Positions 37 through 8,808 of a DNA stretch of 64,000 bases are shown in pieces (positions within the stretch are counted from its first letter, which is position 1; each line of letters begins with the position of its first letter). Below the pieces are notes generated by a model. The model made no database searches, had not been told where the DNA came from, and was given only the letters and a program-made list of their open reading frames with translations. The position numbers were made by a program, and so were the translations under genes. This stretch comes from Saprospiraceae bacterium (GTDB lineage: Bacteria; Bacteroidota; Bacteroidia; Chitinophagales; Saprospiraceae): contig JALSPK010000174.1 in NCBI GenBank assembly GCA_026986005.1, positions 1 to 64,000 of the forward strand, read 5' to 3'.

Positions 37-112
37 AATGAACGGCGACTAACAGTAGATAAGATGAAGACTTGCTATCGCTGCGTCCTCCTCTTATCAT
101 TGACCGTTGTGC
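37..112 (+). other. attC-like recombination site (left, eroded)
   Basis: A strong hairpin is formed by 58-71 and 85-98 (12 of 14 pairs) around a 13-nt loop. Outside it, AACGG (41-45) can pair with CCGTT (104-108). The site ends in GTTGTGC at 106-112, the same box that ends the site at 1863-1869. The left box is diverged (AATGAAC at 37-43, where GCACAAC would be expected). The layout fits an integron attC whose 3' core box opens the next cassette. It is shorter (76 nt) and less perfect than the two sites downstream, so the assignment is weaker. Confidence 0.5.
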
Positions 113-134: not shown

Positions 135-653
135 ATGACAGAAGAACAGATAAAAGAAAAACTTTCGAATGCATTTGTTGCTGTTGTAGCTAATTATAAT
201 GGTTACAAATTACAAGTACCTGATGATACTGGAGGAGTTGATTTTTCTGTTACTTATGATAAAATTCTATCAAGAAATGGAAAAATAAGACATATTCATT
301 CAGGTCAGTACATAGAATTACAGTTAAAAGCCACAGAGGAACATCGAATTATTTTCAATGAAGATCATTTAAAATTTGACTTGGAAGCAAAAACATATAA
401 TGATTTAATAGAAAGGTTTAATGATGGAAATGCACCACTTGTTTTGATTTTAGCCATACTACCTAATGACAGAAATCAATGGGCTGAAATAGGAGAAGTA
501 AATTTAAATATGAATCAGCGTGTTTACTACTTCTATCCATCTGATGAAATGGTAGAAACACAAAATCAAAATACAATAAGAATAAACATTCCTTATGAAA
601 ACAAAATTGGAATGGATTTTTTTCATACTTTATTTGCTCAACATTACAGATGA
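135..653 (+). CDS. DUF4365 domain-containing protein
   Basis: This 172-residue protein matches the DUF4365 pattern: an N-terminal helix with Glu residues (3, 4, 8), a Gly-Val-Asp-Phe strand (Asp36), a strand with Glu61-Leu-Gln63-Leu-Lys65, then a Tyr-Asn-Asp-Leu helix near 87-92. The Asp and Gln-x-Lys spacing resembles the PD-(D/E)XK nuclease core, with Gln where (D/E) usually sits, as often in this family. DUF4365 proteins are common in mobile and defence regions, but no reaction is established here. The ATG lies 22 nt after the GTTGTGC box. Its stop overlaps the next start (ATGA), so the two genes are probably translated together. Confidence 0.8.
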   Translation: MTEEQIKEKLSNAFVAVVANYNGYKLQVPDDTGGVDFSVTYDKILSRNGKIRHIHSGQYIELQLKATEEHRIIFNEDHLKFDLEAKTYNDLIERFNDGNAPLVLILAILPNDRNQWAEIGEVNLNMNQRVYYFYPSDEMVETQNQNTIRINIPYENKIGMDFFHTLFAQHYR

Positions 654-1729
654 TAACAAATACGAAAATAATATCATACATTCAGAATCGTGGATGGATT
701 CAAAGTAGAGAAACTGAAAAGTTTCAATATTTTCGTGCACCTGATTCATTAGGGTTTGAAGAAGAATATGAACTTCCCATTCCCAGTAATCCTGATAGTT
801 CAGATTATACTAAATTTTTGAAAAACACATTATTTCTATTAGCGGACATCTATGAAATATCTAATGAGGAACTTGAAATAATAATTGAAGAAGATAATAC
901 CATTTTATCTATTAGAATTCACGATAACCAAACCAAAGATGGGAAAATTGGATTCAAAAGATTTGAAGAATTAATAGATGGACTTAAAGACCTTTTACTT
1001 GATACAGCTTCATTTGTAATGCATCCTGATATTCAAATTAAATCAAGTCCAGCAGAAGCATATAGATACTTAAATTATTGTAATTTTTTACAAACAGAAG
1101 TGGGAAGTTTCATAGCCAAAGTAGAGTTACCTTCCAATGAAGTTATAAGGGAACCTCAATTATTTGATGAAGAAATAAGGGCTAATCAAATAAATGCAAA
1201 ATTGAAATCAGTTATAAGATATGTTAAAAATTCCGTTTTTGATTCTAATGGGCAATTTGATGAAATCCATTTAGAAGAAAATCTATCTAACATTAACTTA
1301 AATATTTTAAAAGATATTGAAAAGATTTACGATAAAACAGAAAGTAGGAATATCGAATTTTATTTTAGCGACATTGAAGATTCGATAAAGATAAATACAG
1401 AAAATATTTATAATGAAAACCTTATAAAGTTATCTAACTTGATTCAAAGCATTAATGAAACGCTAAATGAAGAAAATGAAAGAACTCTAATCGGTAGAAT
1501 TATAACTTTAAAATCTACTGATCCTGATGGAGAGAGAAATGAAATTACTTTTGCTAGTATTTTAGATAATATGCCTATCAAAGTAAAGGCTCGTTTAAAT
1601 AGTGCAAATTATCAAGATGCTGTTAATGCACATATTCTTAAAAAAAATATTCAAATTAAAGGAATTTTAAAAAAATTAAAAACAATATATAGGTTTATTG
1701 AAATACAAGAATTTGATGTTCCCGAATAA
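650..1729 (+). CDS. uncharacterised protein with OB-fold-like C-terminus
   Basis: I do not recognise a named family over most of this 359-residue protein. It starts inside the stop of the DUF4365 gene (ATGA overlap) and ends 9 nt before the attC-like site, so it is the second gene of cassette 1. It is acidic and cytosolic, with no signal peptide or membrane segment. Residues about 281-359 alternate short beta strands (Gly-Arg-Ile-Ile-Thr-Leu, Ile-Lys-Val-Lys-Ala, Ile-Gln-Ile-Lys-Gly-Ile-Leu) in a way that suggests an OB-fold nucleic-acid-binding domain; this is inferred from pattern only. It could be the partner or target-binding subunit of the DUF4365 protein. Confidence 0.75.
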   Translation: MITNTKIISYIQNRGWIQSRETEKFQYFRAPDSLGFEEEYELPIPSNPDSSDYTKFLKNTLFLLADIYEISNEELEIIIEEDNTILSIRIHDNQTKDGKIGFKRFEELIDGLKDLLLDTASFVMHPDIQIKSSPAEAYRYLNYCNFLQTEVGSFIAKVELPSNEVIREPQLFDEEIRANQINAKLKSVIRYVKNSVFDSNGQFDEIHLEENLSNINLNILKDIEKIYDKTESRNIEFYFSDIEDSIKINTENIYNENLIKLSNLIQSINETLNEENERTLIGRIITLKSTDPDGERNEITFASILDNMPIKVKARLNSANYQDAVNAHILKKNIQIKGILKKLKTIYRFIEIQEFDVPE

Positions 1730-1738
1730 AAACACTAT

Positions 1739-1869
1739 GCACAACAAAAAATATAGTGCATTTGGCAGATAGTGCTAAAAATGAAGATGATAGTAATAAA
1801 TAAACATAGTGCAAAATTGAAACTTTGGAGCGTTAAAATGCCAAACGCACCATATTCAAATCGTTGTGC
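1739..1869 (+). other. attC-like recombination site (middle, well preserved)
   Basis: This 131-bp site lies between the two cassettes. It opens with GCACAAC (1739-1745) and closes with its complement GTTGTGC (1863-1869). Inside, 1751-1767 pairs with 1839-1855 over 15 of 17 positions, separated by a few unpaired bases from the end boxes. This is the R''-L''-...-L'-R' layout of integron attC sites, which recombine as a folded single strand. The site resembles the one at 7387-7517 in length (131 bp), in the first 17 bases and in an internal GTGCTAAA. Confidence 0.75.
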
Positions 1870-1872
1870 CTA

Positions 1873-4800
1873 ATGCCAGAAAAAAAACGAAAAAAATCTA
1901 TGATAAACATACTGAACAACTATTGCAATAAGGAAAATGGATTATTGTTGTTCAATCCACCAACTGGCTCTGGAAAAACACACAATGTATTAAAGTGGAT
2001 ATTTGAAAACTACAAAGACTATTGCAAAGAAAATAGAAAAATATTTTTTATCACCAACTTAAAGAAGAACTTACCTTTTGACGAATTAAAAACAGATTTT
2101 TTTGTTCCAAATGGAAAAGAACACGAATTTGACAAGCACGTTACATTTCTAGACTCTAATTCTGAAAATTTACTAAAACGCTTTCATTTAGTTGATGATT
2201 CAATAGACAAATATTTTAAAAATCATAAAGTTTATTACACAATTGTTTCAATTCTAAATAAAATTAAGAAACACGAAACTAACCCTGAATTTAAAGGTAT
2301 TGTTAAAGAAATGAAGGATAAGTTAAGAAACGAACTTGAACCTCAATTCAGGCGGATAATTGAAAAATTTTTAAAAGAAAATTACAGTAATAGAAATGAA
2401 AGAATAAAAGCAATACAAACAGACAACAAAATAAAATGGATAGGAGAATTATATCCAGCAGTTTATTCTTCAAAAAGAAAAGTATTCTTTTTAAGTATTG
2501 ACAAATTCTATTTTAAAAACAGTACATTAGTTGAACCTTCATATTCATTCCTTGAAAATGATATAACTAAAGATGCTATAATATTCATTGATGAATTTGA
2601 TGCTACAAAAGACAATCTACTAAAGAACATAATCGAAAAAGGGAGAAAACAAAGAATAGATTTTATTCATTTATTTACTGAGATCTATTGGGCATTATCT
2701 AAAAACATATTTCCTCAAAAATTTGTAACTCATTCTGAGAAAAGAAAAGAATTGATTGAAAAAGGATATAATCTTAATCTAGAAAATATCCAAGAAATTC
2801 TACTAAAAAAAGCTGAAGAAATTGTACAAAGATATAATCTTAATTATAGTTTCAAAACAAATAACAAAGATGATGAAAATGAAAATCAAAGAAATTTATT
2901 ATTTCACGATTTTCAATATCACTCTGTTTATAGAAATAACAAACGATTTATAAGGCTTAACACCAACAATAGTTCAAAAATAAATGAAATTATTTTTGAA
3001 ACTGAACGTCCTAATTCGGGAGAAAACATTGTTGCCTTGCTTAATCAAATTAAAGGTTTTGTAAATTATTTTAGTGGTATAATTAAAAGTATTTCAGAAA
3101 ACTACCAACAGCTTGAAATGCAAGAAAGACAAGAAAATCCGAATAGAATAGAATTCACGTTTGACCTTGCTTTAAGTTCCGTTATTGAAGAATTTGGTTT
3201 AGATAGCAGATATAAATCCTTCATCATTGAAAATATATTAAGTGCAAGAGAAAGAACTAAAAAAGATAAATTTGAATTAAATTATGATTTAAGTGTTTAT
3301 GAAAACGGATTTAGATATTATGATTTTGTTGATGATGATTCACATCAATCAAAAACAAAAATTTTTATTTACAACTTTCAAAATACACCTGAAAAATTCA
3401 TTTTAAAACTTGCTGAAAAATCTAAAATTATTGGAATTTCAGCAACCGCAAAGGTAAAAACGGTTACTGGAAACTATGATGTGTCATATTTTAAAAGACA
3501 ACTAGGTAATAGTTTTTTTGAATTAAACAAAAATGAGAAGGGACTTCTTTCTAATTTATTCAATCAACAAAATAAGTATTACAACAAAGTTAAAATTGAA
3601 ACTAAATGGCTTTCTTTCTCAAATTACGAATCAGATTTCGAAAAACTTTTTGAAGATAAAGAACTAGCACTTGACATCATAGGGGAACTTAAAAATAATA
3701 ATCCAAAAATAACAGATTACCTTTTTTATCGTTATTTGAAAATTGGTTTTTCATTTAAACAATTCTTATTAAAGGATAAAATAAAAGGATTTTTGTGTTT
3801 ACTTAATAAAGAGCCAAAATATTTTGATAAGAATTTAAACTTGAAAATTCTAGAAGAAATATTTTCAATTTTAATTGAAAATACAACTAATACTATTGAA
3901 TTGTTTTCAGAAGAAAACGAAAAAGGAAAATTGAAATATAATGTAAAGAATGCTTACGCAATAATCAATAGCAATGATTTTGATAACAAAAAACAATCTT
4001 TCATTTCTAGATTAGAAGATGATAAAAAAGTTTTTATTATCTCTATGTATCAAACAATGGGGGCTGGTCAAAACTTACAATACACTGCACCAAACCCCAA
4101 AGAACTAGTTGATGTTAAAGATGAAGATTTATTTAATTGGAATAAAGAGAATAAAACAGATATAAATGCAATCTATCTTGACAAACCAACACATCTTATT
4201 CAACAGATAAGCAAAGATTTGAATGAAGAAGGATTTATTAGATATTTATTTCAACTTGAATTTCTAGCACAAGCAGGTAAAATATCAATTAAACAATTAA
4301 ATAGACAAGTTACTATTGCCTTTAAGCACCTTTTAGCATCATTTAACAACACAAAAAAACTAGAAAATCCAAATAATGGGTTTCTTTATCAAGATGAAAA
4401 TATAAAGCAACATTTTGCTAAATATATAATTCAAGCAATTGGTAGGATTTGTAGAACAAATCTAAAATCATCAAATATTTATATTTACGCAGATGAAGAA
4501 CTTGATAAACTTATTTGTGATTTTGATGTGGATAACAACATCGTTTTAAATGAGTTTAAAGCACTTGTAAAATCTTCAAAACAAAAGAACAGATTAAACT
4601 CAATTGACGATAAACAATTTGTTAATTTAGCAAATTCAACAAATAGGAAGATAACATCTTTAATAAAGAAATTTATTTCTTCAGATTGGAATTGGAAAGA
4701 AAATCAAAAAAAAGAATGGGAATCTTTAAGAAATATGTGTTTATGTTTCCCTACTATTTCTACGGATGATATTTCAAAACTAGGTCTTAATAGAATTTTA

Positions 4801-5403
4801 GATTTATATATAGAATTACCTTTGGCAAATGATAATTATTCATATAATCAAGAAGAAGATTATGCTAGTATTGAAGTATCATTCAATGATTCTTTGACTT
4901 TTAAAGTTTCTGAAAAATCCGCAAGGTTAAAAGAGTTGATGGAAATAGAAGGTGTTGAAAGTTATTTTAAAAAGAATAATTGGGCTACTAGTTTTAAAAA
5001 GAATAAATTCATTTTACCACCTGAATTATTTAATAACATATACAAAGGAGCATTGGGAGAACAAATTGGAAAATTTATTATTGAAACACAATACAAGGTT
5101 GAATTAGAAGAGTTGTCATTAGAAAATTACGAACTTTTTGATTTTAAAATAAAGAATAAAGACATTTATATTGATTTTAAACATTGGAAAGAAAACACCA
5201 AAATTGATGCTAAAAAACAACTCAAAAAGATTAGCGAAAAACTTGATACAACAAAAGGGTACAAAGTATTTATCATTAACATTTTATCCTCAGTAGAAAG
5301 AAAATCAATTCCTACAACAGATAAAAGGATTATAGAAATTCCTTTTTTATGGAATACAGAAACAAAAAAATTCAACCAAGAAATAATAAAATTGCTTCCA
5401 TAA
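1873..5403 (+). CDS. ddmD: DdmD-like SF2 helicase / PD-(D/E)XK nuclease fusion
   Basis: This 1,176-residue protein has a superfamily 2 helicase core followed by a C-terminal nuclease. Visible helicase motifs are Walker A (Pro-Thr-Gly-Ser-Gly-Lys-Thr, 30-36), Walker B DEFD (240-243), SAT (523-525), a Gln-Thr-Met-Gly-Ala-Gly-Gln motif V (727-733) and QAIGRICRT motif VI (854-862). The nuclease has Glu1063, Asp1090 and Asp1101-Phe-Lys1103, a complete PD-(D/E)XK set. Length, domain order and the adjacent Argonaute-like gene match DdmD of the Vibrio cholerae DdmDE plasmid-elimination system, where DdmD unwinds and degrades DNA marked by DdmE. I chose the ATG at 1873; a TTG at 1864 is in frame but lies inside the attC core box. 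No methyltransferase is nearby, which argues against a restriction enzyme. Confidence 0.8.
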   Translation: MPEKKRKKSMINILNNYCNKENGLLLFNPPTGSGKTHNVLKWIFENYKDYCKENRKIFFITNLKKNLPFDELKTDFFVPNGKEHEFDKHVTFLDSNSENLLKRFHLVDDSIDKYFKNHKVYYTIVSILNKIKKHETNPEFKGIVKEMKDKLRNELEPQFRRIIEKFLKENYSNRNERIKAIQTDNKIKWIGELYPAVYSSKRKVFFLSIDKFYFKNSTLVEPSYSFLENDITKDAIIFIDEFDATKDNLLKNIIEKGRKQRIDFIHLFTEIYWALSKNIFPQKFVTHSEKRKELIEKGYNLNLENIQEILLKKAEEIVQRYNLNYSFKTNNKDDENENQRNLLFHDFQYHSVYRNNKRFIRLNTNNSSKINEIIFETERPNSGENIVALLNQIKGFVNYFSGIIKSISENYQQLEMQERQENPNRIEFTFDLALSSVIEEFGLDSRYKSFIIENILSARERTKKDKFELNYDLSVYENGFRYYDFVDDDSHQSKTKIFIYNFQNTPEKFILKLAEKSKIIGISATAKVKTVTGNYDVSYFKRQLGNSFFELNKNEKGLLSNLFNQQNKYYNKVKIETKWLSFSNYESDFEKLFEDKELALDIIGELKNNNPKITDYLFYRYLKIGFSFKQFLLKDKIKGFLCLLNKEPKYFDKNLNLKILEEIFSILIENTTNTIELFSEENEKGKLKYNVKNAYAIINSNDFDNKKQSFISRLEDDKKVFIISMYQTMGAGQNLQYTAPNPKELVDVKDEDLFNWNKENKTDINAIYLDKPTHLIQQISKDLNEEGFIRYLFQLEFLAQAGKISIKQLNRQVTIAFKHLLASFNNTKKLENPNNGFLYQDENIKQHFAKYIIQAIGRICRTNLKSSNIYIYADEELDKLICDFDVDNNIVLNEFKALVKSSKQKNRLNSIDDKQFVNLANSTNRKITSLIKKFISSDWNWKENQKKEWESLRNMCLCFPTISTDDISKLGLNRILDLYIELPLANDNYSYNQEEDYASIEVSFNDSLTFKVSEKSARLKELMEIEGVESYFKKNNWATSFKKNKFILPPELFNNIYKGALGEQIGKFIIETQYKVELEELSLENYELFDFKIKNKDIYIDFKHWKENTKIDAKKQLKKISEKLDTTKGYKVFIINILSSVERKSIPTTDKRIIEIPFLWNTETKKFNQEIIKLLP

Positions 5404-5404
5404 A

Positions 5405-7408
5405 ATGAAATATTGCAAAATAAATACCTTGAAAATTGATTTGAAATTTGCTAATATTTTAAATGATTTTTCTATTGTACAATTCTCATCAACTGATAAT
5501 TATATAAAATATGGAGCATTATTTTTAGACGAAATTAATCTAACATTAAAAACCAAAAGTATTGTCTTTGAACAAGGTAAATCTTTTTTTGCATTATTTG
5601 ACAAATATGATTTTGAAAAAATAGATTTATCATTAAAATTAAAATCTTTAAAATTTAGCGAAACTCTAGTATATAAAATTATAGATTCAGAAAATGAGTT
5701 AAATAAAATACCTAGACACTTATTATCACAATTACTAATCAACTCAATATCTACACCCAAACATAAACGTCTTTCATTTAATAATTTGACTGGGAAGTTA
5801 TATTTATTTAATACCAATCATTTCAAAATAAGTAAAACCAGAGAGAAAGAACAAATATTTAAAATAGTAGGATTAGAATTTAAAATAAATAAGTCATTAT
5901 CGTTAGAGTTAAATGTAAGAACATTTTCAAATGTTTTGCTTTTTAAAAAAATGGATTTTTCTAAAAAGAAATTTAGAGATTATGCAAAATATACTTTTGT
6001 TCACGCTACAAATACATTAAAACGTGTATTGAATTCAGATGAAAAAGTAGAAAACCAGTTTATATTAAAACAAACTCAAAAAAACGGAAAACTTGAGAAA
6101 AATAATATTCCTTTTTTAGATTTTAAAAATTTAGAAGATTTTAAAATTACCAAATTAGGTCTATTAAATGATGTAATGTTAAGTATTGAAAATAAACTTT
6201 CAAATTACATAAATATTTCATTTAACAAAGTAAGTATTAGTAATGTAATTAGGTTTAATAATTCCCTTAAAATTGAAAAACAATCTTTCAAAATCACTCT
6301 TATTGATAGCATAAATGATGATGATTCATTAGAAGTGATAAATGATTTGATAAAGGAAATAAATTTAATATCACCTTTGAGTAAATTGAAAATTTCAAAA
6401 AAGGAAAGTAAAAATGGGTTTAACATTAAACTTATTCAGAATAGAGCATATTATTCAAGATATAACTTGATTGATCCGTACAAATCAAGTTCAAATATTC
6501 AACATATTACTTTGCAAGATTTTAAAATTAATTCAAAAGCATCAATAAAGGCCATTATAAAAGAACTGATAATAAAAAATGATATTCAAAGTAATCAAAT
6601 CAGCATAATTGATTGGAAAAAGTACAGTTTTAATGATAAGTGGATTTTTGGAAATAAAGTTGAAGATGATTTTTTCTTTGTTACTGTATATCCAAATGGT
6701 AAACTTGAATTTGAACAATTTGAAAGACATTTGTTTAACCAAAATGAGTATGATGAACTTTGCAATATTTTTGATGAAGATTCAAATACTGAATTTATAT
6801 TAAAAGACGATAAAGGAAATATCAACAGCATCAAGAAAACAGAAAATTTTTCTTTACCAGAATTTGAATCTATTTATGAGATATTGTCAAAAGAGAGTGA
6901 AAATATAAAGATAAATAAACAGCAAGTAATTTCTTATGTAGAAGAAGTATTTGAACTTCCAAAACAAAACGAATTCATCCAAAAAATAAATTCGCTTGAA
7001 AAATGGAATAAACTCTCTTTATTAAATTGTTTTCCTAGCAGAACTGATAAGAAAAAAATAACTGAAATCATAAAGGATAAAACATCTGAAGTTTTAAAAT
7101 CGTACTTGCGAGATAAAACACGTTATGAAATTTTAGATAGTCAATTAGATATTCATCACTATGTAGAAAATGAAAGACAGTTTTATTTTGTTGGAATTAA
7201 AGGTGCAGGTATTCAACAACAAATATCAAGAGCATCTGTCATAAGGGAAATCGAAAAAATAAATGAATCTGAATTTATATTTGAAGAATTATTACCACTT
7301 ATGAATGTTGATTTTGTGAAGAATGGAGATTTAACAGTAATGCCCTTTCCTCTGAAATATTTAAGAGAATGGATAAAATACACTAGGCACAACAAAAAAT
7401 ATACGTAA
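5405..7408 (+). CDS. ddmE: DdmE-like divergent prokaryotic Argonaute
   Basis: This 667-residue protein starts one base after the helicase stop, so the two are co-translated. It is AT-rich and divergent; I see no DEDX catalytic tetrad, consistent with the inactive PIWI domain of DdmE. The C-terminal third has a Phe-Tyr-Phe-Val-Gly-Ile-Lys stretch with a following Arg-Ala-x-x-x-Arg helix (about 596-615), and a Pro-Phe-Pro-Leu-Lys-Tyr-Leu segment close to the end, like the PIWI end of Argonautes. In V. cholerae, DdmE uses a short guide to find plasmid DNA and recruits DdmD. Size (about 670 versus about 690 residues) and position support the call more than sequence, which I cannot align here. The last eight residues are encoded by the attC-like site. 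Confidence 0.7.
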   Translation: MKYCKINTLKIDLKFANILNDFSIVQFSSTDNYIKYGALFLDEINLTLKTKSIVFEQGKSFFALFDKYDFEKIDLSLKLKSLKFSETLVYKIIDSENELNKIPRHLLSQLLINSISTPKHKRLSFNNLTGKLYLFNTNHFKISKTREKEQIFKIVGLEFKINKSLSLELNVRTFSNVLLFKKMDFSKKKFRDYAKYTFVHATNTLKRVLNSDEKVENQFILKQTQKNGKLEKNNIPFLDFKNLEDFKITKLGLLNDVMLSIENKLSNYINISFNKVSISNVIRFNNSLKIEKQSFKITLIDSINDDDSLEVINDLIKEINLISPLSKLKISKKESKNGFNIKLIQNRAYYSRYNLIDPYKSSSNIQHITLQDFKINSKASIKAIIKELIIKNDIQSNQISIIDWKKYSFNDKWIFGNKVEDDFFFVTVYPNGKLEFEQFERHLFNQNEYDELCNIFDEDSNTEFILKDDKGNINSIKKTENFSLPEFESIYEILSKESENIKINKQQVISYVEEVFELPKQNEFIQKINSLEKWNKLSLLNCFPSRTDKKKITEIIKDKTSEVLKSYLRDKTRYEILDSQLDIHHYVENERQFYFVGIKGAGIQQQISRASVIREIEKINESEFIFEELLPLMNVDFVKNGDLTVMPFPLKYLREWIKYTRHNKKYT

Positions 7409-7517
7409 TTGCGGTTTTGTGCTAAATTCAAAGTTTGTACCTTTGGAAAAAGTACAGTACTAGACCGAAAAGTAAGTGCTTTAAAGTCCGCAACTACGCA
7501 TATACAAACCGTCAGAC
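7387..7517 (+). other. attC-like recombination site (last in array)
   Basis: This site is 131 bp, the same length as the middle site. GCACAAC is at 7387-7393. The arm 7400-7414 pairs with 7488-7504, with one mismatch and a two-base bulge, the kind of extrahelical bases typical of attC. The closing box is GTCAGAC (7511-7517) instead of GTTGTGC; it is one base from the canonical GTTAGAC. No further cassette follows: the next gene is a minus-strand housekeeping gene. The ddmE stop codon (7406-7408) lies inside the left arm. Confidence 0.7.
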
Positions 7518-7593
7518 TGTAAAGTTACCTACAAAAGCCAATTATTTTAGATTATTTGCTAATTCACGAAATTAAAAAACATGATCTATTTCG

Positions 7594-8808
7594 CTACCAG
7601 TAATGGCTCTTGTACGGATATCTGACCATGTATTTTTCTTCTATCAGAACTCCAAGTTTTTCTCTAAAAGTATTGATATTTTCTTTGCTTAGGGCTGAAA
7701 CAAAAATCACATTTTCGCCATAATTGTTACGCAGTTTTTCTTCGAGTTGAGTGATTATTTGAGTTTTAGTTTCTTGATCAAGTAAGTCATCAAAGTAATT
7801 TTTTCTATATAGATCTATTTTATTAAAAACATAAAATGTAGTTTTGTCTATTGCCCCTATGTCTTTTAGTGTACGATTGACGGTATTTATTTGGTCTTCG
7901 AATTGAGGGTGTGAAATGTCAACAACATGCAGTAAAATATCGCTTTCTTTAGCTTCATCCAATGTTGATTTAAAACTTTCAATTAAGTGATGAGGCAATT
8001 TTCTGATGAACCCAACTGTATCCGAAAGCAAAAAAGGCATACGTCCAATAACCATTTTTCTTACAGTCGTGTCTAAGGTTGCAAATAGTTTGTTTTCAAC
8101 AAAAACATCTGACTTGGTAAGTTGATTCATCAATGTTGACTTACCGACATTAGTATAGCCTACAAGAGAAACTCTAATCATCTCGTCCCTGCGTTTTCTG
8201 CGAGTTTGGTCTTGCTTGTCAATGACAATGAGTTTGTCTTTGAGTTTCTTTATCTTGTCTTTGACGATACGTCTATCTGTTTCGATTTCCATCTCTCCTG
8301 GACCTCTCATCCCAATACCGCCACGTTGTCTTTCAAGGTGAGTCCACAGCCCTCTAAGTCTAGGGAGAAGGTATTGCAACTGTGCTAATTCTACCTGAGC
8401 TTTGGCTTGAGCTTTTTGGGCTCTTTTGGCAAATATATCCAGGATAAGCGTACTACGATCTACGATTTTTACTTCTAATGCTTCTTCAAGATTGATAGTT
8501 TGTTTGCCGGTTAGGTCATCGTCAAAAATAACCATATCGATATCCCCTCTTTTTTCAATATATTCTTTTATTTCTTCAACTTTACCTTTCCCTATGAAAA
8601 ACCGCTTATCAGGTTGATTCATTTTTTGTGTATATATTTTTTCGGTTGTAGCTCCTGCTGTTTTAGCTAGAAAATCTAATTCATCCAAATATATCTTTAC
8701 TTCTTCTACTGTGTTTTTATAGATTACACCTACTAAAATTGCTTTTTCAAGTTCTTGCTTTATGTATGTTTTTTTGCTTTTTTTTCCTAACTGCCAATGG
8801 TCACTCAT
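7594..8808 (-). CDS. hflX: GTPase HflX
   Basis: HflX is a ribosome-associated GTPase that splits stalled 70S ribosomes under stress. The 404-residue protein has the HflX N-terminal domain with a Gly-Lys-Gly-Lys motif (about 73-76) and an Arg-Gly-Pro-Gly-Glu turn (168-172). The G domain shows G1 GYTNVGKS (217-224), G3 DTVG (263-266), G4 NKID (329-332) and G5 SAL (371-373). Length is normal. It is the last gene of a minus-strand run with the EnvC-like gene (3-bp gap) and the DUF4292 gene. There is no gene between it and the last attC-like site. Confidence 0.95.
   Translation of the reverse strand: MSDHWQLGKKSKKTYIKQELEKAILVGVIYKNTVEEVKIYLDELDFLAKTAGATTEKIYTQKMNQPDKRFFIGKGKVEEIKEYIEKRGDIDMVIFDDDLTGKQTINLEEALEVKIVDRSTLILDIFAKRAQKAQAKAQVELAQLQYLLPRLRGLWTHLERQRGGIGMRGPGEMEIETDRRIVKDKIKKLKDKLIVIDKQDQTRRKRRDEMIRVSLVGYTNVGKSTLMNQLTKSDVFVENKLFATLDTTVRKMVIGRMPFLLSDTVGFIRKLPHHLIESFKSTLDEAKESDILLHVVDISHPQFEDQINTVNRTLKDIGAIDKTTFYVFNKIDLYRKNYFDDLLDQETKTQIITQLEEKLRNNYGENVIFVSALSKENINTFREKLGVLIEEKYMVRYPYKSHYW

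Follow-up and report, generated by a model that had tools for sequence, protein, structure and literature searches.

The window, a stretch of 64,000 nucleotides, covers the first 64 kb of contig C174, which measures 80.7 kb and comes from a Saprospiraceae bacterium genome of 3.8 Mb (220 contigs, 96.9% complete). As listed in Table 1, it opens inside attC-like site A, the left end of the first cassette at the contig edge. This is followed by a PDC-M02A/B pair, a second attC-like site (B), ddmD, ddmE, a third attC-like site (C) and a 49-nt remnant of an insertion sequence (IS). Ordinary chromosome begins at 7594. The PDC-M02A/B pair forms a neighbouring candidate defence cassette, judging from its profile matches.

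Table 1. Features at the left end of the window, with the attC sites bounding the related pair in Bacteroidales UBA6680.
Feature	Position	Strand	Evidence
attC-like site A, 66-nt class	47..112	+	17.6 bits, E 0.0077 (other-genome model); bottom-strand fold z -2.45
PDC-M02A-like gene (DUF4365)	135..653	+	PADLOC 6.5e-35; Pfam DUF4365 1.8e-11
PDC-M02B-like gene, same cassette as PDC-M02A-like gene	650..1729	+	PADLOC 4.9e-32
attC-like site B, 131-nt class, left boundary of DdmDE cassette	1739..1869	+	56.5 bits, E 1.4e-12
DdmDE cassette, 5,648 bp	1864..7511	+	putative cut positions, integron rule G^TT
ddmD, SF2 helicase with C-terminal PD-(D/E)XK nuclease	1900..5403	+	PDB DdmD 9ix4 2.4e-61; PADLOC DdmD 2.6e-47; motif alignment
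ddmE, divergent Argonaute-like guide-binding protein (predicted)	5405..7408	+	PDB DdmE 9iw3 1.6e-12; profile 2.7e-21
attC-like site C, 131-nt class, right boundary of DdmDE cassette	7387..7517	+	48.7 bits, E 1.2e-10
Left-end remnant of attC-targeting IS	7511..7559	+	49/49 nt identical to copy on C206
HflX-like GTPase gene (product presumed from reading its sequence), chromosomal, borders array	7594..8808	-	ORF listing
UBA6680 left attC, 178 nt	5809-5986		39.2 bits
UBA6680 right attC, 80 nt	11542-11621		fold z -6.6

The ddmD and ddmE genes

DdmDE itself is an already known system. The ddmD reading frame runs from 1864 or 1873 to 5403 and encodes 1176 aa counted from the ATG at 1873, and the ATG at 1900 is the start common to its relatives. 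Among PADLOC models and PDB structures, the helicase matched only DdmD. Alignment with relatives showed that the Walker A, DEFD, SAT and QxxGRxxR (QAIGRICRTN) motifs and the nuclease motifs GE...FDF...DFK were all kept. Identity was 68% to the UBA6680 protein (69% from the shared start), 56% to that of Nonlabens (a truncated record without the nuclease end in the motif alignment), 37% to Nostoc and 22% to Persicobacter.

The ddmE reading frame encodes 667 aa, follows ddmD on the same strand after a gap of 1 nt, and has its stop codon within attC site C. DdmE was the sole significant match of this protein among solved structures, and a profile built from four relatives also retrieved DdmE, with a list that reached no other protein family. 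In an alignment that took in UBA6680, Nostoc and Persicobacter, the window protein was 57% identical to the UBA6680 DdmE (also 667 aa) and 18-29% identical to the Nostoc and Persicobacter relatives. Because the AlphaFold model, made from a two-sequence alignment, was unusable (pLDDT 35), membership rests on sequence and operon structure, by which the protein is a divergent DdmE.

The original prediction had described an SF2 helicase of 1,176 residues with a complete C-terminal PD-(D/E)XK nuclease, one base upstream of a 667-residue divergent Argonaute-like protein, and had recognised in the pair the size, order and domain set of DdmDE. Both reading frames were present with their motifs intact and conserved, and the profile search that it had proposed for both proteins gave the homologies listed in Table 1. 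The helicase matched DdmD and no restriction or Hachiman-type family, and the smaller protein matched solved DdmE. DdmDE identity is therefore well supported by homology. As in V. cholerae and the other solved systems, the genes form a two-gene operon, DdmD then DdmE, with like sizes and DdmD motifs. The V. cholerae pair belongs to the VPI-2 defence region (PMC12409362), whereas the window pair lies in a cassette and its DdmE has diverged far. No WYL regulator gene was found ahead of the pair within the DdmDE cassette.

Cassette boundaries and an insertion sequence

A covariance model was built from five attC-like sites, all from other genomes, and 12 kb of the window was scanned with filters off. 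The two boundary sites scored 56.5 and 48.7 bits, which bears out the predicted placement of the pair exactly between two attC-like sites. Both of these long sites were missed by cmsearch at default filters and recovered with filters off. They were also recovered by a whole-genome search with the same model (E 4.4e-10 for site B and 3.8e-8 for site C), which returned about eight further sites on other contigs. Site B has an R'' box (GCACAAC), an L''/L' stem and an R' box (GTTGTGC), with a bottom-strand fold z of -3.23. In site C, R'' and the L''/L' stem are intact and the last seven bases read GTCAGAC in place of R'. When arm pairing was scored at a fixed length of 131 nt, site B was flagged and site C was missed, because the latter lacks R'. 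The loop of site C also holds a promoter-like TTTG-N-TAnnTTTG match (7416-7445), for which the chance expectation is 4.7 per window.

Stem pairing was then scored on 27 attC sites. The named stem paired in 91% of cells, and 14 of the 16 inner-stem pairs showed changes on both sides. Double-change cells numbered 132, whereas shuffles gave 41 +/- 5, and pairing fell to 24-41% when the register was slid. This alignment was fitted to the model and therefore leans towards structure; the shuffle and slide controls were nonetheless far off. For the alignment of short sites, RNAalifold returned no base pairs, and model R1 for the short sites was therefore sequence-only and left unused.

An integron cassette opens with the remaining half of its own attC, and its start is therefore expected to mirror its own R''. 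The DdmDE cassette starts with GTTGTGCCTAATG, and its own R'' reversed reads GTTGTGCCTAGTG; the PDC-M02 cassette starts with GTTGTGCATAATG, to be compared with GTTGTGCATAGTG in its own R''. Of the 72 bases compared beyond GTT over eight cassettes from three genomes, 58 matched, a result equalled by only 2 of the 40,320 permutations of these cassettes. The mirroring of R'' by the DdmDE start is the signature of an inserted cassette, and the status of the pair as an integron-type cassette is well supported.

The damage to site C was traced to the IS. The sequence CGTCAGACTGT occurs at nine sites in the genome (eight besides the window) and at none in the reversed control, and most copies are joined to an attC at the same position. 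On contig C112, the sequence after the far end of the IS is GTTAGCATTT; this is the R' belonging to the next cassette, and it matches that cassette's own R''. These junctions and the attC-joined copies indicate that the IS inserts just 5' of R'. Since 7511-7559 is an IS end identical to the C206 copy, the right-hand DdmDE attC is without R'. The end sequence GTCAGACTGT had been considered as a conserved attI-derived array end, which was rejected when the C112 junctions showed it to be an IS end. An IS with this end lies just 5' of R' at many attC sites (C112, C140, C174, C193, C198, C206, C207 and C208; loci L093-L101), and every copy seen in the genome is either incomplete or interrupted in its reading frames. 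Insertion sequences of the IS1111-attC group, as cited in PMC12444791, likewise target attC sites. The IS described here differs in that it sits just 5' of R'; it has a broken transposase and is of uncertain family.

When the 3' attC of the window copy was examined for GTTRRRY, an intact R' was absent and the IS-derived GTCAGAC stood in its place. With R' lost to the IS, excision is predicted to be impaired, and this copy has probably become fixed where it is, because the R' half of its right-hand attC was replaced. The earlier suggestion that the pair could move as a single cassette thus fits how it arrived better than its present state.

DdmDE and attC arrays in other genomes

The proposed survey for the same pair between attC sites yielded a second genome, Bacteroidales UBA6680 (L012), which carries the DdmD and DdmE relatives compared above. 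Its cassette start is nearly identical to that in the window; the 3' attC, which reads GTTATGG at the R' position, and the neighbours differ, one neighbour being PD-Lambda-4. A recombinase search in UBA6680 returned an Xer-like match only. Most other DdmDE pairs found in Bacteroidota lie outside cassettes, and in three genomes of one genus (L118-L120) they lie directly 5' of brxA, brxB and brxC. In these three, DdmDE has an RtcR-like CARF regulator gene next to it on the opposite strand, a possible DdmDE-BREX combination. DdmDE-like pairs are also carried by plasmids, namely Persicobacter pPP11 (L092, beside parAB) and Nostoc pn2 (L091). No DdmD relatives were found in the phages or viral contigs searched, and none beyond this genome among 395 genomes of the phylum and 395 of the class.

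No IntI above the curated cut-off was found in the genome. The best recombinase candidate, a 378-aa protein on contig C211, heads an attC cassette on a contig other than that of DdmDE. Its closest solved structure is IntI4 (1.6e-39), and alignment with IntI1 showed that the IntI-specific additional domain is absent. The gene is followed 3' by an attI-like junction, CGTTGGCATTC, an AriAB/PARIS-like gene (2.2e-33) and, where the contig ends, the first half of an attC. Among 120 genomes of the family, a C211-related recombinase occurred in 71, its contig mostly ending soon 3' of the gene, and attC sites occurred in 53. Both were present in 37 genomes, attC without recombinase (E 1e-40) in 16 and recombinase alone in 34, a modest association. 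Recombinase and attC shared one contig in five genomes (G445, G453, G481, G488 and G490), and on several contigs the recombinase preceded attC in one orientation. On a complete Parabacteroides plasmid, a recombinase 43.5% identical to that of C211 precedes Tdi1/SMI1 genes that are separated by palindromic spacers. In the tree, the C211 and Parabacteroides recombinases were sisters (0.82), and IntI1 was placed with weak support.

Origin of the cassette and its relation to known arrays

A genuine DdmDE anti-plasmid operon very probably arrived here as one large cassette in an integron-like array. Judged by its homology, DdmE would load a short DNA guide, find matching plasmid DNA and recruit DdmD, whose helicase and nuclease would destroy the plasmid. 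The anatomy of the locus suggests capture of the pair as a circular cassette of 5.6 kb. The folded bottom strand of its attC would have been recognised by a tyrosine recombinase from the IntI-like/rAID-recombinase group, with insertion at G^TT of an array; in this genome, the IS has since taken the place of R' in the right-hand attC. We infer expression of the pair and plasmid elimination by it, and we take the C211 recombinase to be the probable mover of these cassettes. Counting against this reading, the array is split over contigs, and the recombinase and DdmDE are for that reason not joined on one contig. The missing IntI domain of the recombinase, its modest association with attC, the Xer-like match alone in UBA6680 and the low confidence of the DdmE fold (pLDDT 35) also count against it.

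The array may instead be a canonical chromosomal integron in which an ordinary IntI, missed by the assembly, moves DdmDE, and to which the C211 recombinase is unrelated. The integron-like attC sites and the fragmented, incomplete assembly favour this; however, the lack of an IntI above the cut-off, and the position of C211-type recombinases upstream of attC in several other genomes, usually at contig ends 3', make it improbable. DdmDE does occur outside cassettes, as beside brxABC and on the Nostoc and Persicobacter plasmids, and the pair could likewise be an ordinary defence-island operon flanked by palindromes that are unrelated repeats. This is most improbable in view of the exact attC placement, the cassette-end signature, the covariation and the UBA6680 copy.

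Other alternatives concern what the cassette does. Its proteins may act mainly on phage or other elements rather than on plasmids, since the neighbouring cassettes (PDC-M02, AriAB and PD-Lambda-4) look anti-phage and DdmE is divergent from its Nostoc and Persicobacter relatives. We consider this fairly unlikely, because the DdmDE make-up is kept in both components and the catalytic motifs of DdmD are kept. It is quite improbable that the cassette is decayed and non-functional and was retained by chance: the right attC is indeed damaged by the IS, but both reading frames are full length with conserved motifs.

Assuming the preferred reading of a captured DdmDE cassette, the locus can be compared with known arrays. 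Defence cassettes have been described in chromosomal and mobile integrons by Darracq 2025, Kieffer 2025 and Getz 2025, as reviewed in PMC12409362, according to which integron-borne defence systems are streamlined and larger multi-gene systems absent. Like these, the present array has attC-bounded cassettes, the R''/R' rule and defence cargo. It differs in its 5.6-kb cassette, far larger than the streamlined ones described so far, and in a candidate integrase without the additional domain that is held to define IntI (PMC9668308); at this integrase the array appears to depart from a canonical integron. Complete integrons are rare in Bacteroidetes; IntegronFinder 2.0 found one in Salinibacter ruber, and earlier work had found In0 only (PMC9024848).

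Recombinase-associated acquired interbacterial defence (rAID) arrays of Bacteroidales are defined by short orphan-immunity genes, and how they are built is an area of active research (PMC12247911). The Parabacteroides plasmid array fits the published description. The array studied here resembles rAID in its co-oriented genes and palindromic intergenic motifs; its tyrosine recombinase probably belongs with those of rAID, and a works-alike relation is plausible. Its cargo falls outside the rAID definition, however, consisting of large anti-plasmid and anti-phage systems with genes of 172-1176 codons, compared with 100-300 codons in rAID. On a broader proposal our judgement is evenly balanced: that rAID arrays and these attC arrays are one integron-like platform, widespread in Bacteroidota, whose IntI-like recombinase lacks the additional domain and which captures whole systems of DdmDE size as single cassettes. 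Integron-style capture by such a recombinase offers a testable answer to how rAID arrays build up. If the two are one platform, integron finders relying on the IntI domain would overlook it, and many Bacteroidota would hold defence arrays invisible to these tools.

DdmDE in cassette form had been thought undescribed, and no report of it as an integron cassette was found in the literature searched, which took in few subscription papers. Within that literature, a DdmDE cassette on a rAID-like or integron-like Bacteroidota platform appears to be new. It places an anti-plasmid system in a unit made for one-at-a-time capture and reshuffling, and suggests that such arrays trade entire defence systems as cassettes.

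Two arrays outside the window genome gave side observations. In genome G162 (contig C45, 3328-16797), six 131-nt attC sites follow one another without a break on one strand, about 2-4 kb apart, forming an array of large cassettes. In a rAID-like array of a Parabacteroides distasonis plasmid (L102, 15571-20700), palindromic spacers separate T6SS-immunity-type genes, and the cassette starts appear to mirror their own R'', with CATTACC instead of CGTT.
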